From NCBI GenBank assembly GCA_020055645.1, contig CM034546.1:17174001-17238000 (forward strand): a DNA stretch of 64,000 nt. The letters are read 5' to 3'. Under the pieces are notes generated by a model. It did not search any database, had not been told where the DNA came from, and was given only the letters and a program-made list of their open reading frames with translations. Shown piece by piece: positions 21,801 through 59,209 of this stretch. Source of the stretch: Tomocerus qinae (lineage: Eukaryota; Arthropoda; Collembola; Entomobryomorpha; Tomoceridae). Both the position numbers and the translations under genes were made by a program. Numbering within the stretch: position 1 is the stretch's first letter; the number at the start of each line of letters is the position of its first letter.

Positions 21801-22249
21801 TCAAAATAAAAATGAAACCACATCAACATTTACACTTCCAATTATAAAGGAGTTAGTTATAGATTACAATTGACAATAAAAATAAGCAGAAATCGAATAC
21901 AGATTAATAAATTTACAAGGAATATGAACAGCAATGAATTTGAAGACAAAATTTAGCCCGAATAGCAAATAAATGATGTAAGACAGAATTTTTTGAAATC
22001 ATAAAAAAGGAATCGGCAAAAAAATCTACGTTCGATTGATTCTGACCATTTATTTCGGCCGATTCCGACATATCGGCATAAGAAGAAAACGGCCGTCTCA
22101 GTGCATAATAAATGGTTCGTAGAAAATGAATTAACGATTTACCTGTCCTCTCTGCGTGCAGCTACATTACGTTTTCCGATACTTGACCCAGCAATGTTGC
22201 ATATGCCAATGCAAAATACAGAAATGTAGAACGTTAACGCAATTTTCAT
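8851..22249 (-). CDS. Gene A: secreted fibrinogen-related (FReD) lectin-like protein, complete
   Basis: Eight minus-strand exons: 22249-22143, 20264-20150, 20069-19950, 19882-19855, 19485-19204, 11018-10851, 10764-10634, 8988-8851. All junctions are GT-AG, phases agree (2,0,0,1,1,1,0), and the sum is 1089 nt (362 residues plus stop). Exon 1 encodes a signal peptide (MKIALTFYISVFCIGIC). Exons 2-4 encode a stalk with one Cys (NCGMHVLEAISRL) and coiled-coil-like spacing. Exons 5-8 encode the FRe[26 protein letters not shown], the calcium-site-like DRDND, CPV...GFWFRGCF, SLNG, and a C-terminus ending TEMKIRASC. N-glycosylation motifs occur in stalk and FReD (NTT, NRT, NKT). Family knowledge: FReD proteins (ficolins, techylectins) are secreted pattern-recognition lectins; this role is inferred. 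Intron 5 (8.2 kb) contains a Harbinger transposon. Confidence 0.92.
11495..12235. repeat. GGGTTTTTT-rich dispersed element
   Basis: Both ends are built of CCCGGGTTTTTT/AAAAAACCC blocks in inverted orientation. The same terminal blocks occur at about 42310-42420 and 44335-44455 inside the hAT composite. The internal 'ATACAAGCCTATACTATA' also recurs there (reverse strand here). The paralogous intron of gene B reads through (about 33755) without it, so it is an insertion. Flanks on both sides read CCGGCGATT, a possible target duplication whose ends I could not fix. Not telomeric: it lacks a regular telomere unit. Confidence 0.65.
12240..13848. other. Intron sequence of gene A, AT-rich
   Basis: No gene. 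The stretch near 12470-12830 aligns with gene B intron sequence (about 33815-34205). Beyond 12840 the two introns diverge and I see nothing further. Confidence 0.5.
13849..13925 (+). mobile_element. Solo hAT-type terminus
   Basis: The sequence CAGTGGCAGCTTTACCACTG followed by GGCAGTTGCCCGGGGCCTCG has the look of the terminal region of a widespread hAT family (TIR beginning CAGTGGC). I could not find the matching inverted end nearby, so this is a fragment or a copy with a decayed other end. Confidence 0.4.
14699..14927. repeat. Polypyrimidine/polypurine tract, about 20-bp tandem unit
   Basis: About 230 bases are almost purely C and T on the plus strand. Much of it is a degenerate tandem repeat of CCCTTTTTTTCTCTCCCTCT (roughly 20 bp), with several copies at 14775-14885. 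Open frames across it on both strands are artefacts of the repeat. Mirror-like purine/pyrimidine tracts of this kind can adopt triplex structure; that is inference. It lies in intron 5 of gene A, outside the Harbinger element. Confidence 0.85.
14935..16090. other. Intron sequence of gene A without a gene
   Basis: AT-rich. Around 15500-15960 there are two loosely inverted related stretches (for example 'TTTTTGGAAATTCC' and 'GGCAATTTCCAAAAAAAG', and 'AAAATTCCACATTTTGG' and 'ATGTGGAATTTTCAAT'), which suggest an old palindromic element. No coding support. Confidence 0.4.
16382..17394 (+). CDS. Harbinger accessory protein, SANT/Myb-like with C-terminal coiled coil
   Basis: Exon 1 runs from ATG 16382 to 16611 (donor TT|GTAAGG), exon 2 from 16695 to 17089 (donor GAT|GTAAGT), exon 3 from 17176 to the stop at 17394 (acceptor CACAG). 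Exon 1 encodes MGKFSFKSNVNYDIALLAEV, a WDEIA motif and a TGRSCRDRANLLL segment, typical of the helix-turn-helix partner of Harbinger transposases. That partner is known in the family to bind element ends and help import the transposase. The last exon is a Lys/Glu-rich coiled coil. In exon 2 the frame must shift by one base near the A8 run at about 16799-16806 (after SYIPKK in one frame, LYSKK in the other), so this copy is probably broken, or a tiny intron or read error is present. Confidence 0.75.
17549..18791 (-). CDS. Harbinger transposase (HARBI1-like DDE nuclease), near-intact
   Basis: Minus-strand exons: 18791-18490 (ATG; donor AG|GTAAAT), 18392-18140 (acceptor ACTAG; donor GAA|GTACGA), and 18048 onward (acceptor TTTAG). 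Phases match, giving DLCSIFPRTQCEISRIF, then GFLDGTVRPICRP, NGHKRTHAIKFQSV, YLYGDPAYPL and VRESVEWGFGKV. These supply the three catalytic acidic residues: D in FLDGT, D in YGDPAYPL, E in SVEWGFG. The frame closes at 17644, but the next frame continues directly with LTNCHTCIYGSQ and ends at 17549, the expected family C-terminus. A one-base frameshift near 17650-17660 has therefore cost the last ~33 residues. Family role: cut-and-paste transposition with the SANT partner. Confidence 0.85.
20270..22140. other. Intron 1 of gene A
   Basis: No exons or genes seen. It contains a repeat fragment at 21655-21745 and, around 21420-22100, GC-richer segments with 'CGGCCGATTC' at both ends in related context ('GGCCGATTCCGACATATCGG'), perhaps a decayed element. 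Confidence 0.45.
21655..21745 (+). repeat. Fragment of the AGCTCGCCTGA element
   Basis: 'GAAGCTCGCCTGAATAAAGG' followed by 'GTGTACACGTTTTTGGTAGA' matches the terminal region of the elements at 32464-33420 and 59604-60723. Only one end is present. Confidence 0.6.
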
Positions 22250-30229: not shown

Positions 30230-33200
30230 TCAACACGAAGCACGAATCTTCATCTCAGTTCTCTTCAATTTCAGCCACCCACCAGGAACAAGCCAATATA
30301 TTCCAATATCACTGCTTGCTGACAATGTATCAGGATGGCGACTACTCGAGTACATTCCATTAAGGCTGACCTACAAAACATTTATTCAATTTTGTTTTCC
30401 AATTATCCAAATTATTTTACAAATCATTGAAAACCCAAATTCGTAATCGTTTTTGTTTTTTGGTTAGTATTGGAAGATGCCGTTTTATTAGGAAATCATA
30501 GCAATATTTCCATATTCCATTTTAGATATTCAGTTAAATGAAATGTTTTAAATTCAATTTTTTGGACAATTGATCTACTTAAATTGCATTCTAGTGACAT
30601 ACATTCCAAGCTTTTCTTTATTATTAATATCGTTCATGTCGTTAAATAAGACAATATTGACTATTTAGGTCCATGATCAGAACAAGAGTAAACTATCATT
30701 CTTTGAGATCAATAAAATGTTTCACCTTTATATTACAGACATCTAAAACAAAACAAACAATTACATAGATAGCACTTGTATTCATTTAGAGACTTCATTT
30801 AATCAACCAACTGTAAAAAGTGTAATTTTTTATGTTTTATGTAAATAAAACTAAATTATCTGTTTACTTTCAAATCCATGAAGTCTTTTGCTTTCGCAAA
30901 ATTTCCTAGAAAAAAATGACTCTATTTATTTTAATTTCCAAATGGGTGTCAAATTTAAATCAATTTCCAATGAATTGAAATAATTATCTATATGTGCACC
31001 CGTAATTTCATTTGTTTCAAATCTTGTTAAAAAATTTTGACATGTGAAAGATTGCAGTCCATGAAAATATTTTTAAAAAAATATTTTTGCTCACGTATTT
31101 GGCAATCTGTTTGAATTCACATAAAAAGTTCTCTGTAGCATATTTATTACAAATGACAAGTTACAATGTCCCATTTCTACTCTCATTTATTGATATTATT
31201 GCCAAAATATTTTTAGTTTTATTACATTATATTTATATTTTTGGTTTTATGTTTAATTAAGCTATTTTCCTTTTATGGGACGAAGAAATGTCTAAAGTCT
31301 AAAGTTTTAAAATGATATCAGATTCCGATACTCCAACTAACAAATATTGTTCTCCGAAATCCTGATTTTTTGATGATGACAAGCAACTATTATATTCAAA
31401 AAGTATTTACGAACGCTTTAAACTAAATTAATTGGTGCCTGAGTTTAATGACCTTACAATTAATTTCCAAATTTTGATTTAACAATCTTAGCTATGTGAA
31501 ACCTGTCGCTTAATTTTATTTATGGGGAACATTGTGAAAGATAAATTTCGTTGAAATATTTTTAGTGCCAGTATCAGGCTAACATAGATTAAAAATAATC
31601 ATTTTTCAATGAAAAAGTTTACCAATGTTTCCCATTCTCCCGTTTCTTTTAAACAAGGAATTCAAAACATTCCGAGAAACACGAGAATAAAGTTTTGGGT
31701 TTTAAGCCCGCTTAACACTTTTGGTCTTTTATGAGCCTAATTTAAAGAAATTACTCAAAAGCAAGCAATTTATAATGATATTTTCCATCACTATTCCCCC
31801 ACTCGTTCATTACTCCCACCCTCCTTGTGGAAGAAATCCCATTACCTTACATCACCCAACATCCAGCTACAATGCAATCGACAGCCTGTGGCAGCGTCTC
31901 CAATAAATCCCTTTCTGAAATCAAACTATTTAGGCATTATCTCTTACTTGAAAGCAGTATTTGAACCAAAATCCATTGGCCTTTTTTTCCACTGAGCAAC
32001 TTCCACTACTTCCATCATTGTCTCTATCGATTGTAGAAAAACTTGCTCCGTTGTGCCAATTCATCGCATCTCTCAACGCTGAAATGAATTGATAGATTAA
32101 TTAAAGTGGATGTAGTTGTTAAAGTGCATTGATTATTGAATGTAGATATGATTAAGGTAACTGACTGGACTTGAAACCGACGTAGCCACCGACAGTCAAC
32201 TTGAATTTATCTGCCTCTGAAGCCACTCTGAAGGTGGAATAGTGGGCTTGATAGAGCCTTCCATTTACATGTATGGCTGTAATGAGCAGTTCGTGATTGC
32301 ACTCTTTCGTCAGTTCGTGAATTGTATCCAGACCTAAAATTAATTGGGAGTTATAATTTGTATAAAATTCAAAAAATAAAATATATATGCAGAATTATTC
32401 TTCTGATTTTCATGCAGAAAAATGACTTGATTGTACCAAATCTCTTATAACCACATGTAAAAACCTACAGCAAGCCGTAACAGAAGCTCGCCTGAGTAAA
32501 GGTTACCCTGTACACATTTTGGTAGACGAGAAGTACTCGCAAGTAACACAAAACCGAGCGTACGGATTTTGATCAAACTTTCAGAATTGAGTCTTTATGT
32601 ATGTACCTACAACATATTAAAAAGTGAGACAGTAATATCATACGGAAACGAAGCTATATCATTTGAAACATCAACATAAAATCAAAATTGATTAATGTTG
32701 ACTATGAAAATCAACAGAAAATCAAAACTGATTAATGTTGACTATGAAAATCAACAGAAAATCAAAATTGATTAATGTTGACTATGAAAATCAACAGAAA
32801 ATCAAAACTGATTAATGTTGACTATGAAAATGAACAGAAAATCAAAACTGATTAATGTTGACTATGAAAATCAACAGAAAATCAAAATAGATAATTGTTG
32901 ACTATCAAAATCAACAGATATTCAATCTTGATTGATTATGAGTATTTAAATCTACAGAAAATCAAAATCGGTTAATAATGATTATTTAAATTTAAAGGAA
33001 ATCAAAAAATGGAAATTTGACTATAAAATTGAATAAAAATCCAAAATAGATTTTTTCCATCGTCTAATAGTTATTTTTGGGTTTAATTTGCTTTATTATA
33101 AAATCTCAAATTTGGTAGAAGCGGATTGAAATATTTTATACTATCCTGCTAACAATTTATAGGAAACGCCATTGAACTTTTTAATGTCCATTTAATGCCA

Positions 33201-36200
33201 AATTTTCACTTTGACTATCAAAATAAAGACAAAGTGAGCGCGCGATATCTCAGCAACCAATGGACCAATTTACTCCAAATTCAATAGGGATCGTCAGTGG
33301 TCCATAGGCATTGTTTTTGCTAAGTTTGGTCAATATCCGTCATTGCTTTCGAAAGTTATCGCGGCGACGGACGTACGGACAGACTGTGCGGTTATATAAG
33401 CTGCCTTATTCAGGCGAGCTAAAAATGACTCTAAATTTGATTTTCGTTATTTTTCAATTTTAACCGCAACTATTATAATGTTTTCACAAGGGTAGGAATG
33501 ACAATTATAATACATTCATGGAACTAAAAGTAGTTTAAAATTACATGTAAAGAGCATTTATTTTAAATTTTTCTTTATTTTCCAATGTTATGCTATTTTC
33601 AAACACCGTAAATAAATATAATAAGACTCCCTTGGCGTTTAAATAAATTACGGCAGTTTTTACACTTTTAAATTAAAATGTAAAACATAAAATAAAATAA
33701 TGCTGAAATATAAATGTCCCGTTATCATGGGTTTTCAGAATGTTTAATCATCCGGCGATTAATAAGGACCCGCAGTTTGGTATAGGACCATATTTCTATT
33801 GCTTGGAACTATTAATTTCATCTCCGACTGACATCTATCTTTGACTTTTTTTCAAATTCTTATTTATTTGAAATATTTCGTTAACATTTTATTGGGTCAA
33901 GGTTATTTATTAATTAATGTTTTTTATATAAAAAGAACTTATGTTAGCAGCAGTACAAAAGGCAATATGAAAAATTCCTCACTTCAATAGCAGTAAGTAC
34001 AAAATGCGACTGAGAGTTATAAAAGCGGTCGCATTAATCATATTTAGTTTTAGTGAAAACTGACTTAGATTATGAGATTAAAATAAATATTACATCTAAT
34101 CGAAAATTGAGTCAACCAAAATGGGTGCTGCGTCTGCGTAACAACTAAGACAAGCAATCATTACATAATTTAAAAGAATTTCGCCAGAACTTTGTAAATC
34201 CACCACAGGGTTTCCCTGATAACCTCCTGATGGTAAAGTGCACCATTTTGGATTGGTATGGAAATTTGAGAAAATAAATACGAAATTAAAACAGTCTGGA
34301 TAATAATGTCTAATTAAAAATTCCCAAAATCGTCCATTTTGATCTTGACTGCTTAGATACACAACATTTGACGTTGGTGAAATCGAAATCTGACATCTGC
34401 TAGAAAAAAATTGGAAGCCAGCAAGAATTTTATGACTCAATTTTGTATAGCCTTTAGGTAAAAATAACTTTAAACCGTTCAAAATAATGAGAAAAATTGT
34501 TTTGTCACATTTGTGTTCCCAGTTTACCAATAATTTTTTACCAGCCGGTTATAACCAAGGCGGTTTAAACTTTAATGGGCCAACCCTTCTGAAAAGTTTT
34601 TAAAAAATAATATCTTAGTTGCCCAAATAGTGGTATTATAATAAGTTGGATTGGTACCAAAATTTTTCATCTCTTTGGGACTTAAATAAATTTTCAAAAT
34701 ACTCAACTCTGACCAATGAACAAAATTTGCCCCTATTTGGATTATTTGTTATCATAGTGGTAAGGATGCCCTTCATGGTAAAAATAATAAAATATAACAG
34801 TTTGCTAAATTAATGCACACATAAAACAAACTAAAATAGGTCAGATACATGTTCTTATACATCGAATTAATAGCCGGATTTGTAGTTAAACCGTCGTCAA
34901 TATTTATAATGATTCAAGGATAAATTTTTAAAGTTTGGATTTTTTCGAAACTCCTTAAATTTCTGGGTACACCTGATTTACGGCTGATAAGAGACGTTAA
35001 TGTATATTATTTTGAAATTAATTTAATTCATTTGTGTATGAATATATGTGTTAACGGCAATAAGTAAATTCAGGCATTAAGCTTAATGCCTAAGCAATCA
35101 GCTTAATGCCTAAGCAATCAGCTTAATGCCTAAGCAATCAGCTTAATGCCTAAGCAATCAGCTTAATGCCTAAGCAATCAGCTTAATACCTAAAAATGCA
35201 CGGCATCAAGCTTAACGACTAGGCATGAAGCTTAATGCCTGAATCTACTTATTGCCGTTAACATACATATTGACAAATATACAAGCAAACGAACATTATT
35301 TTAATCATTACAATTATTGAAAGAGGTTAAACGGTTTTGGTTTTGCAAACATAGTCACAGCTTTAGAGCAAATTATCCTGGATTTTGAAGTAAGGTGCCG
35401 GGTATTGAATTAGTGTATGAATTTAAGAGATGTGTATGAAAAAAAATTTGAAATTCGATATTGAATCTCAACTAATGATAACCTATGCAAAAAGGGGAAT
35501 GTGAAAAACAGTTTCTTTCCGATTTTTGATGCACCGCCCCCTTCCCGCAGGACACACCCCCCGAAGGTCGAAAAGCATATACAAAAAATCTCGGCAACTA
35601 CTGGACCGATTTGGATGAAATTTTTTTTAAATTGAATGAGATAATATTTGCCCCAGGGGTTCTGCGATTCATTTTCAAAAATTCGAACTCCATCAATGGC
35701 TTCAAAATAAGATTTCAAAATTTTGTGAAAAGAAGGTCAGTTTTTGCACTTTTGAAAATTATCACTTATAGAGCAAATCTTACTGCATATGCATAGCTAT
35801 AAAACAGCTAGAGTTATCATATTGCATCAATTTGACCTCCTGAAAATGTCAAAGGTCAACTTTTTTGAAACGCTCCCAATATATTCTTGTGTGACCTATC
35901 CAATCAGCATCTGAATAACTCGAGCAGAATTTGATTATGAGTGTAAAATGACATAGATTTTTTACTAGTAAAAGGTCAAAAGACTTCAATTTGCTTCAAA
36001 CAATTTTTATTTTTGTTATTTTTTCGAAATTGACCTTTGACCTATTACTGAATTACAAAATTTGTGTCATTTTACATCATAATCGTTCTGCTCGAAGTTA
36101 TTCAGATGCTGATTGATAGGTCACACAAAAGATTAAATATTGGAGCGTTTCAAAAAGTTGACCTTTGACATTGTTTTCAGAGGTCAAATTGATGCAATAT

Positions 36201-39200
36201 GATAACTAGCTGTTTCTGTAGCTATTACAGTAAGATTTGACTCTATAAGTGATGAGAAATTTTCAAAAAACGACTTTTCCAAAATTTTGAAATTTATTTT
36301 GAATGATGGAGTTCGAATTTTGAAATGAATCGCAGAACCCCTGGGGCAAATATTATCTCATTCAATTTAAAAAAAATTTCATCCAAATCGGTCCAGTAGT
36401 TGCCGAGATTTTTTGTATATGCTTTTCGGACTAATTTTCGGGAGGTGTGTCAGGGGGCGAGTGCATCAAAAATCTTGGAAGAGAAACTGTTTTTCACATT
36501 CCCCTTTTTGCATAGGTTATCATTAGTTGAGATTCAATATCGAATTTCAAATTTTTTTTCATACACATCTCTTAAATTCATACACATTAGCTTTATACAA
36601 CTATAAGGAAAAGTTGAAAATTAGAAAACAATAGTACAGTCAAAGAAGTACGCGTTTTCGAATGAAAATTGGGTGAAGTTTTACAGATACTTCCGATACT
36701 TAAGACATGAACCTATATAAATCTCTTATTTATAGGGGCCAAAAAGTTGAAAGCAATAATGATAGTGGGAATTTTACTTCATTTAGAGGACAATTGAAGT
36801 AAATTATACAAAAGGATAACTACTTGGGATTCACGGCTTAAAAAATGCAAAATCACTGTAACGACGTTTGAACGAATTGTTAATATTTCTTCTTAGTTCT
36901 CAAGTTATCTAGAGTTAGAAGAGATTTTAGTTTAATTTCTCCTGCAATCTAGTGTGATTTACATATTGTAAGGGGCAGCTAAAAGTGACCATATCAATTG
37001 CCATGCATAAAGACTACATTGATAGGTTATGGACAATTGATTATTACGACGGACACTACAACAACCATACGTAACTTGGCCATAGGGCCACACTGCTTAT
37101 TTCCATGTAATTCCAGGTGGCCACTTATAGCCACTCCGATCTGCAGTTACTCTTCTTTTAGTTACACACATTTACCTTATATACCTTCACTCCAATCATA
37201 AAGATTTTCTTCTCTTACCTAGCCAATAGTCGTTGTTCGGGTCACCAAATCCGTTTTTGTATCCATCCCACGTTTTTTTGAACAAGTCTGATCGCTCAGT
37301 TTCGGTCAACTGCCCGGGTATTCCCCGCCGTTGGAACACTGTCCATCCACCTCCAGAAGTCTCCATATCGCAGTAGACATTTACCGATTTTTCTTTATCG
37401 AAGTAGGGATATAGCTTATACACTCCGTTTTTTTCATTATTTTGTACTCGGTTGAGTTCATAACAAGCCACAATTTCGAGTGAAGTTAAAACTAGAAAAA
37501 AATTAAATCATTAAACACACAAGCTTAAAAATAAATAATAATGTGTAACCTATGAATGTATATAACAATTTTTATTTTGATCTATTACATACATATTATA
37601 ATACGCCACAATTAACTTTCATTATTGAAGGTTCACAAATATTTGTAAATAGTAGTTTTTGTAGTTAAAGGCTGGGTAAACTGATGTGATGAGGGACCAT
37701 CCATCCATACACTATGTAGTGCAACAATATTTAAGATTTTTTACTGTTTGACAAAAAAATCCTCTTTTTCTTGGGATTTAGGGGAGCACCTCTCTAAATA
37801 CGTACCTCTTATTCAATCGCTTGTTGTACGGTTCCTGTACACATGTCATTTTGTCTTGTAGTGTATGAGATTTGTGCATTAAGGTTATCACACGCGCCAA
37901 AATGTATTTTTGCAATAATGTTTTAATTAGTCATTATGTAGCTGATTACTTGATCTGAGTGAACAGCAATCGCAGTGGCATTGTTCACTTTGAAGGTGGG
38001 AAAATCTAAATTGAATGACAGGATTTGAACAGCGACGACAAAGAGAAAACTAATTGCGCACGGGTCATACATCTAGTGTATAAAATTTACCAATTTTTAG
38101 GCTTTTTTACCATCACAAACGTAAAAATTGTAAAAATGCATTCAATGGTAAAAATGGTAAATTTTAGAGATTAATTAGTCAGATCTATACAGACACACAA
38201 GACTTACTAAAATATAAGTTTTAAAACTTTATTGTTTATGAAATGTCTCCAATTAGCCCCTTAATTAATCAAATTAATCCTATTTATTTCATAGGTTCAC
38301 CGAAAGTTATAAAAAAGAGATTAATGTATTTGATATCGCCAATTTATATACAATTGAATGAATGTGCTAAATTAATTGCAATTATTTCCCTTAAGGCAAA
38401 TAAGGACATTATAAGAACGATGATTGCCCCCGTTGGATCTACTTCTGATTGACGAACACTTATTTAATTTGTGACAACAATCATCAACTGCTAAGCTATT
38501 TCATTCTTTGCCACAGAATTTCATTCAAAATTTAACCAGAAATTTAAATGAAACTATTTTTTACCATTTTTACAATTTATACTATTTACCACTACTTTGT
38601 AGGTAGTTATATTAATGTTAAATACCATTAAAAACTACTTACCACCGCTAGGTGGTATTTTATAAACTGCATACGTCATCCTCGAGCTAGAAGTTCGTCG
38701 GTCACAAAACAAGGCATTTTAAACGTTTGATTTATTATCACCATATAACCTACTGATTTGGGATGAAGACATAAACGAGTTTACAAACAGTTTCTTAATC
38801 AAATCAGCCAAGGGGGCCATAGGGCATCGCCCTCGCCCCGAAATTGGAGGAAATAAAAGATTGTTTGCTTTAAAACACGGTATATACCTCTATTTTTACT
38901 TATTATTATTAACTATTGAATATAAGTTCAACTTACCAGAAAAATATGTTTTCATGGAATAATCCTGAATTAAAACAAAATATTAAGTGATTTTAGATGT
39001 ACAGTAAATTAAGAAAAGGTAGCAATAAAATATTATAATTTTGATGCAAAACACGTTTATCGAATAGCGTGAGTATAAAGTTAAAGTAAATTTTAATTTA
39101 GTGATGTGGCGCTATCTTACTTATCTAAACGTTAGTAACTGAATAACTGAACGAGAACATGAACAGGCCAACATTGAAGATCGATAAAATAAGTAAACAA

Positions 39201-39408
39201 TTTAACTCTTTTTTTGTCATTACAATACCAATGCTTGCAATATTAGTTATGATTTAGACATTATTGTGTGATAGTCAACTTCAACTTAAGTAACTTAACA
39301 CACATTGAAATTACCTCTAAAAGGACACTGTCTCTATTCTCTACATCGTCAGCCTTAAGGTTTCCAAGGTCCGTGTCTGCAGTTTCTGTTCCCTCCTCAA
39401 TCGTTTCA
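30230..39408 (-). CDS. Gene B: FReD lectin-like protein, mosaic, leader exon not found
   Basis: Minus-strand exons: 39408-39315, 38964-38937, 37491-37219, 32333-32166, 32078-31948, 30370-30230. All are GT-AG; lengths sum to 835 nt, one base plus 278 codons including the stop, open throughout. The first exon ([17 protein letters not shown]) needs two bases from an upstream exon, as in gene A. The 28-nt exon is the counterpart of gene A exon 4. The FReD shows [43 protein letters not shown] and ends TEMKIRASC. FReD1 is nearly identical to gene C, while FReD2-4 match gene A. The 790 bp to the stop of gene C show no signal-peptide exon. A possible poly(A) signal AATAAA (minus) lies at about 30184. 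A role in pathogen or glycan recognition is inferred from the family. Confidence 0.85.
32464..33420. mobile_element. AGCTCGCCTGA element with 40-bp minisatellite
   Basis: Starts near CCTACAGCAAGCCGTAAC and ends at CTTATTCAGGCGAGCT. AGCTCGCCTGA occurs inverted near both ends. It interrupts sequence that is continuous in gene A's intron (near 11145), so it is an insertion; the junctions lie in A-runs, so the duplication cannot be fixed. Inside are a 40-bp minisatellite (32674-32960) and a GGACGTACGGACAGAC microsatellite. A second copy in inverted orientation is at 59604-60723. No coding capacity. Confidence 0.8.
32674..32960. repeat. 40-bp minisatellite
   Basis: About seven head-to-tail copies of a 40-base unit built around ATCAACAGAAAATCAAAACT and GATTAATGTTGACTATGAAA; the central copies are nearly identical and the last ones decay. 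Confidence 0.92.
35044..35275. mobile_element. TTAACGGCAATAAGTA palindromic element with 20-bp tandem repeat
   Basis: Left end GTTAACGGCAATAAGTAAAT followed by CAGGCATTAAGCTTAATGCC; right end is its inverted repeat (TACTTATTGCCGTTAAC). The centre holds five perfect head-to-tail copies of GCTTAATGCCTAAGCAATCA at 35081-35180 plus degenerate ones. Related elements are at about 55555-55665 and 57497-57927. Confidence 0.8.
35414..36586. mobile_element. Foldback (palindromic) element, 1.17 kb, TSD TTAG
   Basis: Begins TGTATGAATTTAAGAGATGT and ends with the reverse complement; the two arms of about 580 bp pair along nearly their whole length with a short centre near 36000. Direct repeats TTAG flank it (35410-35413, 36587-36590). 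The paralogous intron of gene C has the empty site GAATTAGCTTAATAC at about 55794-55808. The arms contain CTACTGGACCGATTTGGATG. Open frames inside are mirror images and not genes. Confidence 0.93.
36590..37215. other. Intron of gene B next to FReD1
   Basis: Homologous to intron sequence before gene C FReD1 up to the splice donor. No independent gene. Confidence 0.5.
38089..38665. repeat. Dispersed 0.5-kb repeat (ACCACTTTTTAGGC family), copy 1
   Basis: Begins near 'TTTTTAGGCTTTTTTACC' and ends near 'CTACTTACCACCGCTAGG'. Copies lie at 57946-58450 (internally deleted near its right end) and 62991-63551. The first two are part of duplicated block 2, but the third sits in a different intron, so the sequence has also moved independently. 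Ends carry short GTGGTA/TACCAC inverted motifs. No coding support. Confidence 0.65.
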
Positions 39409-40197
39409 CTGAATAAACATTTCAAAATTTGAAAGTTGTGTACGCATAGTATTTTTAAAATTTTCTTATGCTTTGTTAGTACTCATGTATTGTATTGTTA
39501 ATTTTTGTGCCTTTTCCATTCATTAGCATTTATTGGGGACGACCGGTTTTCTCGTAGTTAAATTTTCAAACAACTTTGAACTAAATTGCTTCTAAATAAA
39601 AACATTATCCAGGGTAATGTAAGACTTCGAAATCTACTGTTTGTATTAAAAGTTTTCTTTCCTATTCAATACCGACTGATTTTTAAGAGATTCATAAAGA
39701 TTCCTTCCCGTTCAACCAAAAAACAAAACGATTAGACGACTTTCATCCTAAAACGCCGTCGTCTCTTTTTGATTAATAGGAATGTTCAACTTTCAACGAC
39801 ACAATTTTCGTGTATACTACTAATACTGTCAAAAAACTGTAACGATATCTCTAAAACTTCTCTCAAATTTGTAATTATGCTGTTTATTAGCTTAGCGCTT
39901 AATTTATTGATTATCCGTCATATTTCTTATGCTTCAATTTTGGCCTAGTATCGACGCGATAAATTCGAAATGTGGTAGCTTTTGAAAATTGCCACCATAA
40001 TTGTTTTTACTTCTATATCAAAAAATTAATTTTTAACATTCCTCGTGCCCATAAAAACAATACGAAATTCTGACTGACTGAATACTCTGGTAGTAATATT
40101 ATTTAGTTCAACTTGCAAGGTAAACGACTGCTAATAATTTGAATGCAACTTTTTATATTTGCGAAATTGAAGTTAGCTGAAATGTCAAAGACAAAGA
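39409..40197. other. Gap between gene B first visible exon and gene C stop
   Basis: Only 789 bases separate the stalk exon of gene B from the stop codon of gene C. I examined every minus-strand ATG: none opens a hydrophobic leader followed by a phase-2 donor. The same holds for the duplicate copy (59210-61082, enlarged by an insertion). Confidence 0.6.
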
Positions 40198-43100
40198 TCA
40201 AAAGTACCTGCGACGAATCTTCATCTCAATTTTTTGTAGCTTCTTTTCCGGACTCCCCCAAAATATTCCCACCAAACTGCTCAGTGGAAATATCTTTGTA
40301 GGGACGCTTCTTGAATACACTCCATTAAGACTGACCTATGAAACGCCATGGCAATAAATATTATGTCGACGATTTGTACTAAATTATTATAGAAATGTTT
40401 GTTTTATGCCTTACAGCAAAACAGTGTTTGAACCAAAAGCCATTGACCATATAATCCACTGAGCAATGTCCTCTAATTTTTGAATCATTGTCTGAATCGA
40501 TTGTAGAAAAACTTGCACCGCTGTGCCAACTTAACCAGTCGTCCATCGCTGCAATTAAATATTACAAAAAAAGACATTTCAATTTTTATGTAGATTTTCC
40601 CTTTTTGAACCATCAACTTTCTATTTGATTCCGTTGTTCGAAAATAATTTCCGATAGTTCCCACGTGTATCTATAGTTTCCAGTTCTAACTTTCAGTCAA
40701 AATGATTTTCAAATATTTGTAACCTGATACCTAACTTATTTACAATTACCTGCAGCAAAGTCGCTAATAAAACAACGTCCTAAATTTCCCTAATTCAATT
40801 TACATGTGGGGTGGTTCTATAGTGTTGATAGTATAGTCACTGTCCCAAAATCATCAATGGGTTGCATTGGCTCAAAATTCTACACACTTCAGCCGAAGTG
40901 AAAAATATTTTTCTTCGATTACATACATACAGTAGTTTTATTATGGCTAAACTAACTGTAACATGCGGAAATTGTAGCTTTGACTTAGAAATACAACTAG
41001 TTGGAATTGGATTTCCAGTGGAAAGTTTCCACTGCCTCCAGAAAAATAGTATATATCAATTAGTAATAGTATATATTGCGAAATAGTTGGGGAAAATTGG
41101 GAAATGTGATAATGATAATTTAAAAAACATTAACTTTTTTGTTTTATTGATTACTAAAGCCCGGTATTCTATTTAATTTTAAAAGACTTCCGCGTCAATG
41201 TTTTGTTTAGATTAGTGACATTTGCAAAGTTTAGAATTTGTCGTGTCCCTATTTTTCACAGACTGGGCTGGTACAATATATGGCTGTTCCTACTCCCTTT
41301 GTGATCGATTTTTAGCAGTTATTATTATGGATTATTATGGAGACGATTTTGACTATTTCTATTTGGAGTAGGTACAAGTGCAAAACAGATTTTTTTCATT
41401 TCACAGGAGAAACTTTTTTTAGCTTTGAACCGTATCTTGAAACAATGAAGAGGAGATAAAGCTTACTAGAATTGTTTTTGCTGTAGCCACCAACAGTTAA
41501 TTTGAATTTTTCCTTCTCTGAAGCAACTCTAAAAAACGAATAGTGTGCTTGATATTCAGTTCCGTTGATATGCGTGGCTGTGATCAGTAGCTCGTGGTTG
41601 TTATCTTTAGTCATTTGGTGAACAGAATCCAAACCTAGAAAATAAATTAAAATAGAGGTGTTTTTGCTAATTTAAAAGTTTTACTAAGTGGGTGGTGTCC
41701 CTGGCAGGGTTACCAGGTATACTTAAATGGCAAGTATAATACTTAAATTGGGCCCTATACTTAAAATACTTGCAAGTATTTTAAAATACTTAAGTTATAC
41801 TTAAATATAAATCAGCTAAAATCGAAAACAGTGAAATAACTTAATGTCCTCTAATATTAGAACACACTTTGTTATCGTTCAGATACGTTAACTAATTGAA
41901 ATTTTCTCGCGCTTCGCGCGAATTTAAATATTTTTGTCTATAACTCCATTTTAATAGTCAAAATTGTCTTCCAATTTCGAAGAAAGTTTATTAATAACTT
42001 ATCAATCAGTGGGGTATAAGTAAAAAACCTCTCTTCCTCAACTGTGTCACTAAACCGTTAAAGCTAAATTACTCAAAATTCGTTAAGTATTTATTGATCA
42101 GTTTTGAAGTTGAATTTCAAAAATTTCTCGCGCTTCGCGCGAGTCGGTATTTTCTGTTCATTTTTTCCTTCGTATATGAAGTAATGTGCAAGAATATTTA
42201 TTTCAGGATGCGTGATTTACTTATTTTTGCTTCTTTTTCAACAAAAAACGTAAATTTGTTAGCTGCGCTCATATTATTGCGTCAAATACGGATGTATGAC
42301 ATTTGCAAGGTATCGAAAAACCCGGGTTTTTTAGGAAAAAACCCTCGACCCCGGGTTTTTTGGGTTTTTTAGGGTTTTTTGGGTTTTTTGGGTTTAAGGG
42401 TTTTTTATATAAGGTATAGGTATAAATACAAGCCTATACTATACCATATATGAAAACTAGGTCACAGAGTAGCTGCCGAAGTGAACGGACACGACATTGT
42501 CGTGGTCCTCATATTTTTAAATTTTTCGGCTTATTTTTGGGCCTATTTTTGCCCAAAAAGTAGTGCTGTGCCATAGAGTGAAGAGGCCTGTACACTCCGG
42601 GACAGAATTTAGTGCACGAAGAGTGGGACAGAACTGAACTCGAATTCGGTGTTTTTTGCGTGAATTCGGTGTTTTTTGCGTGAAGCAGCCCACTGAAATA
42701 CCATTTTTTCTGTGCTGTGAGTGGAATTCCTTATCGCGGAGGACGGCCATGGATGCTAATTGGGTCTGGCAGCGGCGTGAACAGTGATAAGCGGTGATGC
42801 AGATTAGAAGATAAGGCGGCCTTCGAAGACCTGTGCTGCCTACTACAACCGACCAGATTAGTAGTGCTTTTCTTACTAGTCATTCTCATGTTGGCCCTGA
42901 GACTGTCTTCTCCGCTATCCAGACATGGCACTTGAAATATTTCGCTTGAAATAAATAGGTGAAATTTTTGAAATATTTCGCGAAATATTTCACTTACGCT
43001 TTCCTTGAAAAATGAAATATTTGAAATAAATGAAATAAATAGGGTACATGGCATTTATTTCAATTTATTTCAATTTATTTCAAGTGAAATAAATTTAACT

Positions 43101-52100: not shown

Positions 52101-55100
52101 ATAAAATATCTTCTAAAAGTGTAAGTCTTGTAAATGAAAAGCTGCTTGCTATTAAGGAGCATATACCAAAAGAGTTTAGTAGAAAACCCAGGTCATTAAA
52201 AGAGATAGACAATTTTAAGGCTACTGAGTTTCGACTGTTTTTATTGTACACAGGGCCAATTGTATTAAAGGGAATTATATCGGCAAAAAGGTACCGTCAT
52301 TTTATTGTTGTCTAAAAACGCATCGAATAACGAGTGGAATGCAAATGCAAAAAACTTGTTGGGAAAATTTGTCAGCAAATTTCCCAAATTATATGGAAAA
52401 GAGTCTTTAGTGTATAATATCCATTCACTATTACACTTATCAGATGATGCCTTAAATTTTGGAGAACTTAACAATGTTAGTGCTTTCCCATTCGAAACCT
52501 ATATGATGACACTTAAAAGAATGGTTAGAGGAAACACTTACCAGTTACAACCAGTGTTGTACTGTTGACCACTTTTTTGCATTTTGACCGGGCCAGTGGT
52601 CATAATGGTCATAATGGTCAAAATGGCTATAATGGACAAAATATCAGTATACAGTTAAAATGGCTAGCAAATGAAATTTAGAATGTTTGAAGAAGAATGA
52701 AATATGGCCTAAAATAAAACACTATTCAGACTACAAAATGACACTCTCTAATCATTTTAATCATTTTTTAGCTGCAATCTTTAGAAAGTATATTCGTTGT
52801 TTACTGTTGCACCTTAAGCTACCTTGGGACCATAATTAACTGAGGCATTATGTAATATGACCATTTGTTCCACTTTCAGTGCATTTGACCAGGCCATTTT
52901 GACCATTATGACCATTATGACCACTAGTGGTTATAACCACTGCACAACACTGGTTACAACAGGTAGTTAAACGGGTATCGGAAATGAACAATCTCGATGA
53001 ATCGCTTTCGTTAAACAACGAAAAAACAATGTTTAAAAATAGGAATTGTTATAAATGTCATTATAGGGATACATGTGTAAGTACAAGCAATGGCGATAAC
53101 TGTTTCACCTTACAAGACAGGAACATTATGATTATTGACTCTATAATAACAGAAAATGGAATTCCAGTTTATAAAAAAGGTAAAGTTTTCACAAATAAAA
53201 ACACAGTTAGTTTTTACCCTTTTGAAAGCTCCACCTTAGGTATATATAAACTAAATTTACAACATTTATCGCCCCAAAAGACGTACGTAATGAAGCAGTT
53301 ATTGCAAAAATATGTTCTTCTACCGTTTGAATCTAATTTTATTTGTATTCCTTATACTCATGCGTTGTAAACAAAATTTCAACTGAAGTTAATTGATTTA
53401 TATGTTCTTCTACCGTTTGAATCTAATTTTATTTGTATTCTCATATACCATGCGTTGTAAACAAAATTTCAACTGAAGTTAATTGATTTGTTTAAAATTA
53501 TAATACATTGTAGTGCCTTAAGAATTGATTTATGTATTAGTACTCATTAACCGGTGACCGGCGTATATAATTAATAAATGGCTAAAATATAATTATTTTG
53601 ATCTAATTAAATATTTATTTCTGAAAAGCATAATAATAATATCCATAAGCGGCATTTTATTGGCATCAAAGCATAAGTTCACTTTTGCCTACGTGGGCCC
53701 ATGTTTTCATTTCCATTTAATTTAGCATGGCAAAGCGTTGGGACAACGTTGGCCTTACTTTGCCGAATGACAAATGTACTCCACAAGGCCAATACATGGC
53801 CAGCGCTCAAAAAGTACAGTGGGCCGATTTAGACGATTGTCGGCAAATTTCATTAGACCCAGAGCTGAAAACGTTCACTCGTTTAGTTCGTTCGTTCGTT
53901 CATTCGCAGATGAATAAGTTCGTTCGTTCGTTCCTTACATAGAACGACGGAAGAAAAAGATCGTTCAGTTCGCGATCTTAAAACTCGATCAGCTCGTTCA
54001 GTTCGATCAAGTTCACTTGATCATGTAACGCGCAATGCTAACATACAACTATATTTCGTTTTCCTTCCAGATATTTTGCGGGCAATTTCAAATGAAATAT
54101 TTATTTATCAATCAAGCAGCTGAGGTTGAGCAATAAGTATACTAGTAGTATTCATTTGTATGTGGATTGAACTGAGCTTGTGACTTGATGCTACTTATTA
54201 AGTTCGATCGATCGTTCAGTTGAAAAGTTTCAGTTCGTTCGTTCGTTTAACTGTCATGGCCGAAATTCTTCAATAGTTCGTTCGATCAGCTCAATTGAAC
54301 TGAACGAACGAACTTATTTTCAGTTCTGAACTTGAACGTTTTCAGCTCTGATTAGACCGCTGTATGCCCAATGGTTTTGTGCAGCTAGCCGTTTGGGCAA
54401 ATTATTTTTGAACAGTTTGGCAAATCAGTGTGGACATTTTGGCATACATACCAATATTTCTTCCCTGTATCTGTGACTGTATTTCTTAGAACAGAGGAAT
54501 ACCCATTGCGGGCTAACTTATGGACTATTTTGATTAATGTACGGGAAACGTACTTGAGTGAAGAGTCTGCCATTCTCTGAATCGACAACAAAACTCAACC
54601 ACAGGCAGTCTTATTGACAGTGGGACTGCCTTATGATAAAATAAGATGCATGTGCAAATGCGTATACAACCATAATTAACATTTCCAATGAGACTAATAT
54701 TAACAATGAATGACACAAACAAATAAAATAGGACAGAACACATATTTTGCTAAACTCACCGAGTGTATTTGCCAAATTATCCAAAAAGGGCCATCTGCCA
54801 AAATATTTCCCAATTGCCAAAAAAGTTTTTTTCAAACTTATTTTATAAACTCTATTTTGTGAAATAGTTGTACTTCGCTCATTTTCATATATTTTAACGG
54901 TCGAATTTAACATCCGTACTCAGACTTCATTTCTAGTCAAACTTCAGTAAAAATTGATTAAAGCCAATTTGAAATCCAAGTAAGGATGGCATTATGAAGT
55001 CCCCTTTATAAAGTTAGGCTTCAAAAATTGGGAGCCAGCAAGAATTTTATGACTCAGTTTTATATAGCCTTTACGTATAAATAACTTGAAGCCGTTCAAA

Positions 55101-58100
55101 ATAATGAGAAAAATTGCTTTGTCAAATTTGTGTTCCCAGTTTACCAATTGGTTTTTACCAGCCGGTTATAACCAGAGTGGTTTAAACTTTGTTGGGCCAA
55201 CCCTTCTGAAAAGTTTTAAAAAAATAATACCTTAGTTGCCCAAATAGTGGTATTATAATAAGTTGGATTGGTACCAAAATATCGATATTTGTAAGCCCCT
55301 TTTTCATCTCTTTGGGACTTCCGACTGGAAAATCCGAATGGAGGAAGTGATAACATATAGCATTTGTAAAATTTAAGAAATAAAAATACATGTAAAAATC
55401 CCTTATTGTTTTAAATGAAACCCTAACCGTATACATTTACATTTTGCATAAATACACATCGACTGTGTATATTAGACTTAAGTTTTTTCTGTTTACATTG
55501 ATTTCCAATCAAATCAGGCAATAAGAGCAGGCATTAAGTTTGCCGAGTGAATTCCGAGTAAATTTCAGGCATTAGGCGTAATGCCTAGCCTTTAAGCTTA
55601 AAGACTAGTGACTAGACATTAAGCTTAATGCCTGAATTTACTTATTGCCATTAACATACGCATTGACAAATGTACAAGCAAACGAACATTATTTTAATCA
55701 TTACGATTATTGAAAGAGGTTAAATGTTTTTGCATACATAGACACAGCTTTAGTGCAAATTATCCTGGATTTTGAAATACGGTGCCGGGTATTGAATTAG
55801 CTTAATACAACTATAAGCAAAAGTTAAAAATTAGAAAACAAAAGTACACTCAAAGAAGTATGCGTTTTCGAATGAAAATTGGGTGAAGCTTTACAGATGC
55901 TTCCGATACTTAAGACATGAACCTTTATAAATGTCTTATTTATAGAGGCCAAAAAGTGGATAGCAATAATGATAGTGGGAATTTTACTTCATTTAGAGGA
56001 CAATTGAAGTAAATTTTCTTTCCTTACCCAGCCAATGGTCGTTGTTCGGGTCACCAAATCCATTTTTGTATCCATCCCACGTTTTGTTGAACAAGTCTGA
56101 TCGCTCAGTTTCGGTCAACGGCCCGGGTATTCCCCGCCGTTGGAACACTGTCCATCCTCCTCCAGCAGTCTCCATATCGCAGTAGGCATTCACAGACTTT
56201 TTAGTGGATTTTTCTTTATCAAAGTAGGGATATAGCTTATACACTCCGTTTTTTTCATTATTTTGTACTCGGTTGAGTTCATAGCAAGCCACAATTTTGA
56301 GTGAAGTTAAAACTAGAAAAAGATTAAATCATTAAATACACAAGCTTAAAAATAAATAATAAAGTAACCATGAATGTATATACGTAACAATTGTCATTTT
56401 GATCTATTACACATCACTATCACTACTAAAGATAATCGTCTTGTTTGAGTTGCGCGGTGAAATTCGGTATATCGGTTTGTATGTCAGTATGTTATACAAT
56501 GGTGCATAAAATTAATGTTTTCAATAATGTACCCCAACGCATAACTCTATGTACTAAATATAACACATGAAGGTATGCGTTGGGTTACGTAATTGAAAAC
56601 ATTAACACGCATGCGTTCTGTGTGCAGTTCCTTTCTCGCTTTCATCATATCTTAAAATGTGTGGTCTGTCCAATGCTGTGAGATTTGATTGTGGAAGTTA
56701 TTGTTTCTTTAGGCGCTATCACGCATTTAATGTTTTCATATTTTGATTTGCTTTTGTTTCGAAAATTCCCCCACCATGACCAAGATCGACTTTCTAGCTA
56801 GGATCCAACCGGTAGCATTATCTTTTTACAAATGTCGTTGTTTCATACAACAGCGTTTAGATCAGAAAAGAGGTAAAAATAATGCTGGGTGGCTAGCAAT
56901 TCTGTTTCATATATATATAATATAAAAATTAAACGATTCGCCTTTGCTCATCATACAATTTGATTCATATACTCAATAGCTTTATTTATAACAGGGCCTG
57001 GGACCTGTGACCGGCTCGTACATTATAATACGCTACAATTAACTTTCTTTATTGAAGGTTCACAAATATTTGTAAAAAGTAGTTTTTGTAGTTAAACGCT
57101 GGATAAACTGATAAGGGACCATCCATATGCTATGTAGCGCAACGATATTTTCCATTTTTTACTTTTGACAAAAAAATCCTCGTTTTCTTGGGATGTAAGG
57201 GAGCACCTCTCTAAATACGTACCTCGTATTCAATCACTTGTTATACGGTTACTGTACACATGTCTTGAAGTGTATGAAATTTGTGCATTAAGTTCTTAAG
57301 GTTATCACACGTGGCATAACGTATTCTTGCAAAATTAGCCATTGTGTAGCTGATTACTTGATCTAAGTGAACAGTAATCACAGTGACATTGTTCACTTTG
57401 AAGATGGGAAAAATCTAAATTGAATGGCAGGATATGTCCAGCGACGACTGACGACAAAGAGAAAACTAATTGCTCACGGGTCATACCTCTAGTGTATATG
57501 TTAACGGTAGTAAGTAAATTCAGGCATTAATGCCTAGGCATTATATGTAATTTTGAAACATTTTAATTTTTCATACTTATTTTTTTGAAAGAGCATTCAT
57601 ATACCATCATTTCGTATTTGTATTTGAATAACGACATTTTGCAAGTCCAAAATGGTAACGATAATTATTGTGTCATGAATAAGGAGTGAGGTATAGACCA
57701 TAAAACGTTTGCATAAAAGCCACTACAACGTCTTAAGTATTAGTAGCACGCTATTCATATACGGCATTTTGAACTTCTTACAGTGTCCTTATTTAGTAAA
57801 AAAAATTAATTGTACTTAAAAAAATGGTCTTCTAAACTTCAAATTCCAAAAACTAGAATTCTTCAAAAATTTTGCTTATTACCTACGCATTAAGCTAAAT
57901 GCCTGTATTTACTTATTACCATTAACATGTACAATTTACCACTTTTTAGGCTTTTTTAACATTGCAGTGGTAAAAATGCATTTAATGGTAAAAATGGTAA
58001 ATCTTAGCGATTAATTAGTCAGATTAGTACAGACACACAAGACTTATCGAAATATAAGTTTTAAAACTTTATTGTTGATGAAATATTTCCAATCAGCCCC

Positions 58101-59209
58101 CTAATTAATAAAATTATTTCTATTTATTTCATCGGTTCGTCGAAAGTTATGAAATACAGATTAATGTATTTTATATCGCCAATTTATGTACAGTCGGATG
58201 AATGTGCTAATTTAATTGCAATTATTTCCTTATCGCCAAATAAGGACCTTGAGGACGATTAGTGCCCCAGTTGGATCCAACTCTGATTGACGAAAACTTA
58301 TTTAATTTGTGATAACAATTACCAACTCCTAAGCTATTTCATACTTTGGCACCAAATTTGATTCAAAATTTAAACACAAAATTTAAATGAAACAATTTTT
58401 TACCATTTTTACCATTTCTACCACGTATCACTACTTTGTAGGTAGATATACTGCCTACGTCATCATCTAGCTAGAAGTTCGTCAGTCACACAACTAGGCA
58501 TTTAAAACGTTTCATTTATTGTTATCATATAACCTACCTACTGATTTAGGATGAAGACAAACGAGTTTACAAACAGTTTCTTAATTAGCCAAAGGGGGCC
58601 ATAGGGCACCGCCCTCGCCCCGAAATTGGAGGAAATAAAAGAGTTTGCTTTAAACACGGTATATACCTCTATTTTCACTTATTATTATTACCTTAAGACC
58701 CTCCCAATATTTACTATTGAAAATAAATTCAACTTACCGGAAAAATATGTTTTCGTGGAATAATCCTGAATTAAAACAAAATATTCATTGATATTAGATG
58801 TACAGTAAATTAAGAAAAGGTAGCAATAAAATATTATAATTTTGATGCAAAACACGTTTATCGAATAGCGTGAGTATAAAGTTAAAGTAAATTTTAATTT
58901 AGTGATGTGGCGCTATCTTACTTATCTAAGCGTTAGTAACTGAATAACTGAACGAGAACATGAACAGGCCAACATTGAAGATCGATAAAATAAGTAAACA
59001 ATTTAACTCTTTTTTTGTCATTACAATACCAATGCTTGCAATATTAGTTATGATTTAGACATTATTGTGTGATAGTCAACTTCAACTTAAGTAACTTAAC
59101 ACACATTGAAATTACCTCTAAAAGGACACTGTCTCTATTCTCTACATCGTCAGCCTTAAGGTTTCCAAGGTCCGTGTCTGCAGTTTCTGTTCCCTCCTCA
59201 ATCGTTTCA
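40198..59209 (-). CDS. Gene C: FReD lectin-like protein with a 14.4-kb transposon-filled intron, leader exon not found
   Basis: Minus-strand exons: 59209-59116, 58765-58738, 56312-56028, 41634-41467, 40548-40415, 40335-40198; 847 nt, one base plus 282 codons including the stop, open throughout, all GT-AG. Stalk exons are near-identical to gene B. FReD1 has [20 protein letters not shown] and [16 protein letters not shown]; FReD2 [20 protein letters not shown]; FReD3 [14 protein letters not shown] and GFWFKHCF; FReD4 SLNGVYSRS, ending [12 protein letters not shown]. The intron splitting the FReD spans 41635-56027 and holds a hAT composite, a dead 7.9-kb transposon and other repeats; the same intron in gene D is 1.24 kb. 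Donor and acceptor remain canonical, so the gene may still be expressed. A leader exon was not found. The lectin role is inferred. Confidence 0.82.
42460..43766 (+). mobile_element. Likely non-LTR retrotransposon 3' fragment, 13-bp TSD
   Basis: Flanked by exact 13-bp repeats TATATGAAAACTA (42447-42459, 43767-43779). The 3' end reads GCAAATAAAACCCTACTACT, a short tandem tail after a poly(A)-signal-like AATAAA. Long target duplication, no TIRs and a simple 3' tail fit target-primed integration of a LINE or SINE. No reverse transcriptase frame is seen, so the copy is 5'-truncated or non-coding. It carries a nested MITE. Confidence 0.7.
42920..43238. mobile_element. hAT-type MITE, 319 bp, TSD CCGCTATC
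   Basis: Ends CAGACATGGCA and TGCCATGTCTG; exact 8-bp duplications CCGCTATC at 42912-42919 and 43239-43246. The interior is a palindrome of GAAATATTTC and ATTTATTTCA motifs with ACATGCGC hairpin at the centre. Nested inside the retroelement fragment. Confidence 0.92.
44590..45650. repeat. 1-kb dispersed repeat, copy 2
   Basis: Partner of 23283-24245. Inserted in gene C's FReD1-FReD2 intron at a position where gene D reads through ('TTCAGTTCTAAAATAT'). It contains the 90-bp hairpin at 44835-44924. Confidence 0.7.
44835..44924. mobile_element. 90-bp hairpin MITE, TSD AATT
   Basis: AATGTTTTCAACAATGTACC at the left pairs with GGTACATTATTGAAAACATT at the right (allowing few mismatches), with a short loop. 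Flanking AATT repeats at 44831-44834 and 44925-44928; the paralogous repeat has a single AATT (23511-23514), an empty site. A second copy is at about 56512-56605. Confidence 0.85.
45870..46245 (-). repeat. Dispersed repeat, inverted copy of 1460-1905
   Basis: Shares 'GACTTCCGATAACAGTCCCA' and 'CAACAATACCAGTGTTGAGG' with the reverse strand of 1460-1905. Class unknown. Confidence 0.6.
46284..46422 (-). pseudogene. Relic FReD1 exon
   Basis: On the minus strand the stretch resembles the end of a FReD1 exon: a VFQR-like start, then remnants of the TETERSDL region and [10 protein letters not shown] where live copies have [10 protein letters not shown]. Small deletions and frame changes make it non-coding. 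A shorter remnant of the same exon sits at about 62755-62785 in gene D. It shows that an extra FReD1 exon once lay inside this intron before the block was duplicated. Confidence 0.65.
46850..48490 (+). pseudogene. DUF4806-like protein of the transposon (stop codon in exon 3)
   Basis: Plus-strand exons 46850-47057, 47172-47555, 47731-47927, 48031-48190 and 48342 onward join in phase with GT-AG introns. Exon 1 encodes [18 protein letters not shown] and a [15 protein letters not shown] motif; exon 2 starts [17 protein letters not shown], the N-terminal pattern of DUF4806-containing proteins. Exons 4-5 ([36 protein letters not shown]) look like the DUF4806 domain. Exon 3 has an in-frame TAA (47778-47780), and a MITE follows at 48491. 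In this family the function is unknown; association with the transposase is inferred from shared TIRs. Confidence 0.7.
48491..49177. mobile_element. hAT-type MITE, 687 bp, TSD CCCTAAAT
   Basis: Exact 8-bp duplications CCCTAAAT at 48483-48490 and 49178-49185. The right end CCTTTTTCATGCCCTG mirrors the CAGGGCATGAAAAAGG end of the family member at 4327-4950; the left end is CAAGTCATGAAAAAGG. Removing it rejoins a reading frame of the host transposon. Confidence 0.92.
50060..51862. mobile_element. Foldback (palindromic) element, 1.8 kb, ~745-bp arms, TSD TGCT
   Basis: Begins GACAGAAATTATTTGATATA and ends with its reverse complement. Arms 50060-~50805 and ~51117-51862 are almost perfect inverted repeats around a ~310-bp unique centre. 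TGCT flanks both sides (50056-50059, 51863-51866). The host frame resumes in phase if the element and one TGCT are removed (YYGCKRC then DKGKWIHR). Arms contain CTACTGAACCGATTTGGATG, shared with the foldback at 35414. No coding capacity of its own. Confidence 0.95.
52552..52952. mobile_element. hAT-type MITE, 401 bp, TSD GTTACAAC
   Basis: Ends CAGTGTTGTACTG and CACAACACTG; exact 8-bp duplications GTTACAAC at 52544-52551 and 52953-52960. The interior carries tandem GGTCATAATGGTCA motifs at one side and their inverse at the other. It splits the transposase frame between YQLQ and [12 protein letters not shown]. Confidence 0.93.
53311..53490. repeat. 90-bp tandem duplication at the transposase 3' end
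   Basis: The 90 bases from 53311 are repeated almost exactly at 53401-53490 (start TATGTTCTTCTACCGTTTGA). The first copy includes the C-terminal codons and stop of the transposase relic. Confidence 0.92.
53860..54350. mobile_element. hAT-type MITE, 491 bp, TSD ATTAGACC
   Basis: Ends CAGAGCTGAAAACGTTC and GAACGTTTTCAGCTCTG (17-bp perfect TIR); exact 8-bp duplications ATTAGACC at 53852-53859 and 54351-54358. The interior is dominated by GTTCGTTCGTTC repeats in both orientations. Confidence 0.94.
54390..55550. other. Intron of gene C
   Basis: No gene. 'GGCAAATTATTTTTGAACAG' (from 54397) continues the sequence seen uninterrupted in gene D at 62831. From about 55030 it aligns with gene B intron sequence (34390 onward), including a stretch containing 'TTTACCAGCCGGTTATAACC'. 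Confidence 0.55.
56412..57018. mobile_element. Insertion of 607 bp, TSD TACA, with nested hairpin
   Basis: Gene B reads 'GATCTATTACATACATATT' where gene C is interrupted; TACA flanks both sides (56408-56411, 57019-57022). The right end contains AACAGGGCCTGGGACCTGTG, related to sequences at about 6249 and 6375. The hairpin MITE family of 44835 occurs inside (56512-56605). No coding support; ends are not inverted, and the class is unknown. Confidence 0.65.
57497..57927. mobile_element. TTAACGG palindromic element, 431 bp, TSD TGTA
   Basis: Left end TATGTTAACGGTAGTAAGTA and right end TACTTATTACCATTAACA are inverted repeats, followed inward by CAGGCATTAATGCC-type motifs. TGTA repeats at 57493-57496 and 57928-57931; gene B has a single TGTA at this point (about 38077). 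Same family as 35044-35275. Confidence 0.75.
57946..58450. repeat. Dispersed 0.5-kb repeat (ACCACTTTTTAGGC family), copy 2
   Basis: Counterpart of 38089-38665, in the same intron of gene C, with a deletion near its right end. Confidence 0.6.

Follow-up and report, generated by a model that had tools for sequence, protein, structure and literature searches.

Two leaderless FReD genes in a Tomocerus qinae array and the distal leader that they may share

Tachylectin-5A, the ficolins and other FReD lectins are secreted and carry a signal peptide. In a FReD gene array of the springtail Tomocerus qinae, two genes termed B and C likewise encode one full Fibrinogen_C domain each, but a signal peptide for secretion is absent from their visible exons, although a distal exon could supply one. 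Where do these two genes start, and are they still in use? A sequence-only reading of the locus had left two answers: either both genes are truncated at their 5' ends, or they belong to a cassette-choice locus in which one distal leader exon is spliced to alternative FReD cassettes. The question was analyzed in the window (the whole stretch of 64,000 nucleotides under study, C1:17174001-17238000 of a 334-Mb genome) and in 100 kb of each flank, that is, in 264 kb of DNA containing 0 N. The window sits inside a large FReD gene cluster (Fibrinogen_C search; best ~150 of 159 exon-level matches), and genes B, C and D are all carried by its minus strand.

In gene A, a neighbour with a conventional start, the leader is followed by two stalk exons (stalk 1 and stalk 2), a further stalk exon of 28 nt and the four FReD exons. 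Genes B and C are each composed of stalk exon 1 (94 nt), the 28-nt exon and four FReD exons. The exons are located as follows.

22143-22249, minus strand: coding part of the gene A leader exon, phase 2 out
39315-39408, minus strand: gene B stalk exon 1 of 94 nt, phase 2 in and 0 out
38937-38964, minus strand: gene B short stalk exon of 28 nt, phase 0 in and 1 out
37219-37491, minus strand: gene B FReD exon 1
32166-32333, minus strand: gene B FReD exon 2
31948-32078, minus strand: gene B FReD exon 3
30230-30370, minus strand: gene B FReD exon 4, with stop
59116-59209, minus strand: gene C stalk exon 1, identical to that of B
58738-58765, minus strand: gene C short stalk exon, 28 nt
56028-56312, minus strand: gene C FReD exon 1, in the B-like half
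41467-41634, minus strand: gene C FReD exon 2, in the D-like half
40415-40548, minus strand: gene C FReD exon 3, in the D-like half
40198-40335, minus strand: gene C FReD exon 4, with stop
63771-64000, minus strand: gene D FReD exon 1, extending past the window end, with stalk and leader beyond the window
62366-62533, minus strand: gene D FReD exon 2
61305-61438, minus strand: gene D FReD exon 3
61083-61220, minus strand: gene D FReD exon 4, with stop

All introns between the visible exons of B and C are of the GT-AG type, and the exons form a single reading frame with phases 2 in, then 0, 1, 1, 1, 0 and the stop. Without the 28-nt exon, stalk exon 1 (0 out) mismatches FReD exon 1 (1 in). Because the chain that includes this exon (38937-38964 in B, 58738-58765 in C) forces the phase, the upstream exon must be of phase 2; the sequence-only reading had stated this correctly, given the 28-nt exon that it did not mention. 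The spliced products are 277 aa (B) and 281 aa (C) long, both without a start, and carry a full-length Fibrinogen_C domain (PF00147; E 1e-51 over profile positions 11-220 of 221 in B, E 2e-45 over positions 18-219 in C). Solved relatives include ficolin-3 and techylectin-5A. Neither gene contains the internal stops, frameshifts or broken splice sites that identify a pseudogene. When stalk exon 1 was used as a query, exactly two matches were obtained, and the exon of C is identical to that of B across the 94 nt. Elsewhere in the window, exon 4 of gene A (8863-8988, minus strand) has no AG at the acceptor position of its relatives (CCG precedes GTC), and an AG located 9 nt upstream of the usual acceptor would preserve the frame.

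Two intervals separate the stalk exons 1 of B and C from their upstream neighbours.

39409-40197, minus strand: gap from the gene C stop to gene B stalk exon 1, 789 bp, without a leader exon
59210-61082, minus strand: duplicate gap from the gene D stop to gene C stalk exon 1, 1,873 bp, without a leader exon

The distance of 789 bp between the gene C stop (40198) and the gene B exon was confirmed, as was the claim that neither gap holds a leader. In 39400-40210, none of the 9 ATG ORFs of at least 8 aa resembles a signal peptide: the best mean hydropathy over 8 aa is 1.74, and 8 known leaders used as a scale range from 2.31 to 2.97 over 9 aa. A protein profile built from 18 leaders and a DNA profile built from 14 leaders both gave no leader on the minus strand between window-relative 22.3 and 72.9 kb (best E 0.6 among the protein matches listed there). 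Of the 8 leaders that the protein profile recovered in the 264 kb, 7 belonged to its training set; in fresh DNA it then detected two further leaders that were not part of that set (E 2.3e-11 and 2.4e-5), and it is therefore sensitive to members that it has not seen. When the DNA of the gap 39409-40197 was compared with the genome by a search that skips very common words, only the gap itself and its duplicate at 59210-61053 were found among the matches listed. No leader was found in the duplicate gap 59210-61082 either, and no in-frame ATG is present upstream in stalk exon 1. As the likely poly(A) signals of gene C (AATAAA) are located at 39908 and 39888, less than 500 bp would be left for the promoter, 5' UTR exon, leader and intron of B. 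A leader hidden in either gap was rejected upon the ORF scan of both gaps, and a leader inside the introns of C or D was rejected because no homologue was present and candidates did not exceed those of the opposite strand. An assembly error was judged an unlikely cause, since the leaderless layout is present twice, in copies about 91% alike, with 0 N in the 264 kb.

The duplicated layout also bears on the origin of the two genes, for which two further features are required.

54450-55022, minus strand: interval in gene C intron 1 containing the junction of its B-like and D-like parts, placed by homology blocks
59603-60723, no strand assigned: inserted element of ~1.1 kb with 40-bp tandem repeats, the empty site in gap B/C carrying one AAAA

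Gene C matches gene D over 40202-41700 (94.8%) and over two short blocks up to 54449, and it matches gene B from 55023 through FReD exon 1 and the stalk. Judged from these blocks, gene C is a chimera in which a B-like 5' half and a D-like 3' half are joined in intron 1. Apart from the element inserted in gap C/D, the two gaps are homologous, with identities of 91.5% and 91.4% for two parts. Because both gaps share the same sequence, their common ancestor was already leaderless, and the leader would have been lost once, before the B/C duplication, by deletion or unequal exchange. Unequal crossing-over in tandem arrays is known to yield chimeric genes, and gene C resembles them in that its halves are joined within an intron; it differs from the usual chimeras in that the duplicated unit was already leaderless, so that C would have been born without a start. 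B and C are 98.9% identical in the intron that separates the two stalk exons and 88.9% identical in the next one, and C and D are 96.6% identical in intron 2; such patchiness suggests later conversion. A related copy of the inserted element is present in inverted orientation at about 32463-33422 in a gene B intron and is absent from gene A. Both copies look like a mobile element, with short T/A runs at their flanks.

Selection on the two genes was assessed by comparing B with C. In FReD exon 1, 6 changes at 212.7 replacement sites and 8 changes at 57.3 silent sites give a dN/dS of 0.19 (Fisher p 0.0026; 14 changes in 90 codons), and the hypothesis of one neutral copy gives p 0.0085 by a Poisson estimate. 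When the stalk exons are included, the values are 7/309.5 and 9/83.5, with a dN/dS of 0.20. The 5' coding exons differ by one in-frame 12-nt indel, compared to 11 indels in 771 aligned intron bases. With the low dN/dS in FReD exon 1, although it comes from few changes, B and C do not look dead; this apparent constraint makes a plain dead truncation less likely and fits the borrowing of a distal leader. The identity of stalk exon 1 was dropped as a sign of coding constraint, as 346/350 flanking intron bases are identical too, and recent conversion explains it. The 3' halves exhibit no sign of purifying selection, and exons 2-4 are uninformative as to neutral evolution: C and D differ in exons 2-4 by 7 replacement and 2 silent changes (3' module dN 0.020, dS 0.024), and dN/dS is 1.08 for B and A in exons 2-4. 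Replacements in FReD exon 1 at residues kept by the other 9/10 genes compared number two in B and one in C.

FReD exon 3 has a pattern of its own in the array. Between C1:17.12 and 17.29 Mb (e.g. window 31948-32078 and 10634-10765), dN exceeds dS in 26/30 of the pairs listed out of 45, the pairs being not independent of one another; B and the gene at 17160 kb differ by 26 replacement and 0 silent changes, and the motifs FSTID and NGFWF are fixed despite this excess. The pattern is a feature of the array, leader-bearing genes included, and has the look of diversifying selection acting on the recognition face. In exons 2-3, the silent divergence of gene pairs is often below 0.13, compared to mostly 0.4-0.9 in exon 1, and the 3' halves appear to have been exchanged or converted between genes.

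A constrained protein needs a start, and none is present in the gaps or in stalk exon 1; if constrained, B and C would need a start from elsewhere. The sequence-only reading had pointed to DNA beyond position 64000, and the nearest recognised phase-compatible leader on that strand is indeed located there: it is the leader of gene D, with its coding part at C1:17246886-17247001, 13.7 kb upstream of C stalk exon 1 and 33.5 kb upstream of B stalk exon 1. The D leader is phase 2 out and both stalk exons 1 are phase 2 in, and one recognised leader is present on this strand for the three complete cassettes D, C and B. Two observations speak against sharing: the donor of the D leader matches the consensus at only 6/9 positions, and the short stalk exon of gene D was not found by sequence pattern. 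Stalk 1 of gene D (about window-relative 70458-71769, beyond the window) is one long exon that encodes a repetitive, probably coiled-coil stalk, by far exceeding the 94 nt of stalk 1 in B and C.

These data can be accommodated in a stepwise scheme. The leader-to-stalk intron of a progenitor would have been fused with the 3' flank of a neighbouring gene, with the loss of promoter and leader. The leaderless arrangement would then have been duplicated by unequal crossing-over between introns 1, generating the B/D chimera C that is visible in the homology blocks, and both copies would have stayed constrained in FReD exon 1, as indicated by the few changes described above. Some transcripts from the D promoter may skip the D exons, and the phase-2 donor of the D leader may be spliced to the phase-2 acceptor of stalk exon 1 of C or B, which would result in secreted B and C. 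The steps differ in strength. It is very probable that B and C are complete FReD cassettes without a leader that were made stepwise. The use of the D leader by C and B, proposed from gene structure, has somewhat less than an even chance. A single transcription unit of D, C and B, in which one leader would be spliced to any of three complete FReD cassettes, is more doubtful; every cassette would then end in a terminal exon of its own, with a separate poly(A) signal, and the locus would be accidental and recently born in an otherwise conventional array. Expression of B and C as alternative 3' cassettes of the D transcription unit is the most likely reading of these sequences, and we assign a probability of about 0.42 to the whole explanation (leaderless cassettes, stepwise origin, constraint and use as alternative 3' cassettes of D).

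Leaders were also surveyed across the array. First FReD exons were collected at E 1e-10 or better over C1:16.19-17.30 Mb; 21 are without internal stops, and the one at 17136160, with two stops, was left out. An upstream leader on the same strand is present for 19 of these 21 exons, the only exceptions being B and C. Protein matches to three leader kinds identified 14 of the 19 leaders, several of them also detected by ORF scan, and the rest came from fresh or local DNA searches; DNA was inspected for 16, and those at 16217349, 16734613 and 16792724 are known from protein match alone. The leader at 16196096 is without a strong donor. When 14 leaders were aligned (four on loci outside C1:16.19-17.30 Mb and one orphan), a phase-2 GT was present where expected in all 14, and 13 carried an acceptor-like CAG about 30-50 nt ahead of the ATG, which makes a further 5' UTR exon likely. 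Cassette choice across the array is not supported, as 19/21 intact first FReD exons have their own leader, and the leaderless pair (2/21) is a local oddity and not a mechanism seen elsewhere, which speaks against leader sharing. The proposal of a cassette-choice locus thus holds in part: a distal phase-compatible leader exists and the constraint on FReD exon 1 fits borrowing, but a general locus of this kind is not supported, and no more than the D-C-B trio would operate in this manner. Two isolated pieces were encountered in the survey. A D-type leader at C1:16754147 (+) has no first FReD exon among the matches listed before the next leader at 16792724, and is the mirror image of B and C; at C1:17136160-17136429 (+), the opposite-strand first FReD exon with two internal stops is a true pseudogene piece.

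The serious rival to leader sharing is that B and C are 5'-truncated relics, which lost leader and promoter by deletion, yield no secreted product and have existed too briefly to have decayed. The lack of a leader and of room for a promoter, the replacement of otherwise conserved residues in both copies and the dN/dS of about 1 between B and A in exons 2-4 are all expected of relics. However, the loss of the leader predates the duplication, and FReD exon 1 has since evolved with a dN/dS of 0.19; the introns have diverged by about 11% with many indels, while all frames and splice sites are intact; and a dN/dS near 1 in exons 2-3 is also found in leader-bearing genes, so that B is not singled out. 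We consider relics less likely than leader sharing, but not by much.

Less likely again is an unrecognisable first exon belonging to B and C themselves, encoding an atypical signal peptide or a non-secreted start and located inside an intron of the upstream gene. In their introns 2, C (40928) and D (61817) share a conserved ATG ORF with a phase-2 GT; it is a candidate start, although it lacks hydrophobicity (0.99 and 1.02). In 39409-72880, ORFs that resemble a signal peptide and have a phase-2 donor were scored at two thresholds: the loose one, at which 8/8 known leaders are recovered, gave 3 on the minus and 6 on the plus strand, and the strict one, at which 6/8 are recovered, gave none on either strand. 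The 3-4 loose candidates that could serve as a start are thus fewer than the 6 of the opposite strand. Small donor-like ATG exons are present in both gaps, with very weak donors. Against an unrecognisable start, 19/19 of the other leaders are of recognisable kinds.

Finally, B and C might act as leaderless donors for gene conversion into intact neighbours, as do the V pseudogenes that precede the immunoglobulin gene of the chicken, and the patchy intron identities (98.9% then 88.9% for B/C, 96.6% for C/D intron 2) and a silent divergence far lower in exons 2-3 than in exon 1 in many gene pairs would agree with this, but in exon 1 both B and C stand apart from the other genes compared (dS at least 0.42 among the pairs listed), so that neither has recently donated exon 1, and as we know of no programmed conversion in this setting such a role is very improbable.

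Use of the D leader by C and B would have parallels in lola and mod(mdg4), where a shared 5' exon is joined to alternative 3' exon sets. As in these genes, several complete exon sets with compatible phases lie downstream of one start; in contrast to them, sharing is here a proposal from gene structure, D is also a complete gene and the neighbours are conventional. Insect FREP families (e.g. PMC1242226) comprise many duplicated FReD genes per genome, like this array; as a difference, the genes here are split over several exons and have a separate leader exon, which is absent in two copies. A description of leader sharing among FReD genes was not found in the literature available, which does not prove its absence in print.

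One observation concerns the contig outside the array. C1:36670928-36672268, within a contig of chromosome size, contains a full-length COX1 frame in which 12 codons are TGA; it is open when TGA is read as Trp, which fits the invertebrate mitochondrial code, and it is either a nuclear copy or mitochondrial DNA joined to the contig by the assembly.

If the D leader does not serve C and B, the locus is a well-dated case of lectin genes that were beheaded, and it warns that annotation pipelines may fuse genes or invent starts at this place. If it does, one deletion and one unequal crossing-over would have turned part of a one-gene-one-leader array into a cassette-choice locus, this change would be observed at a stage when the old state persists in both neighbours, and the birth of an alternative-cassette immune locus would be testable with ordinary cDNA.
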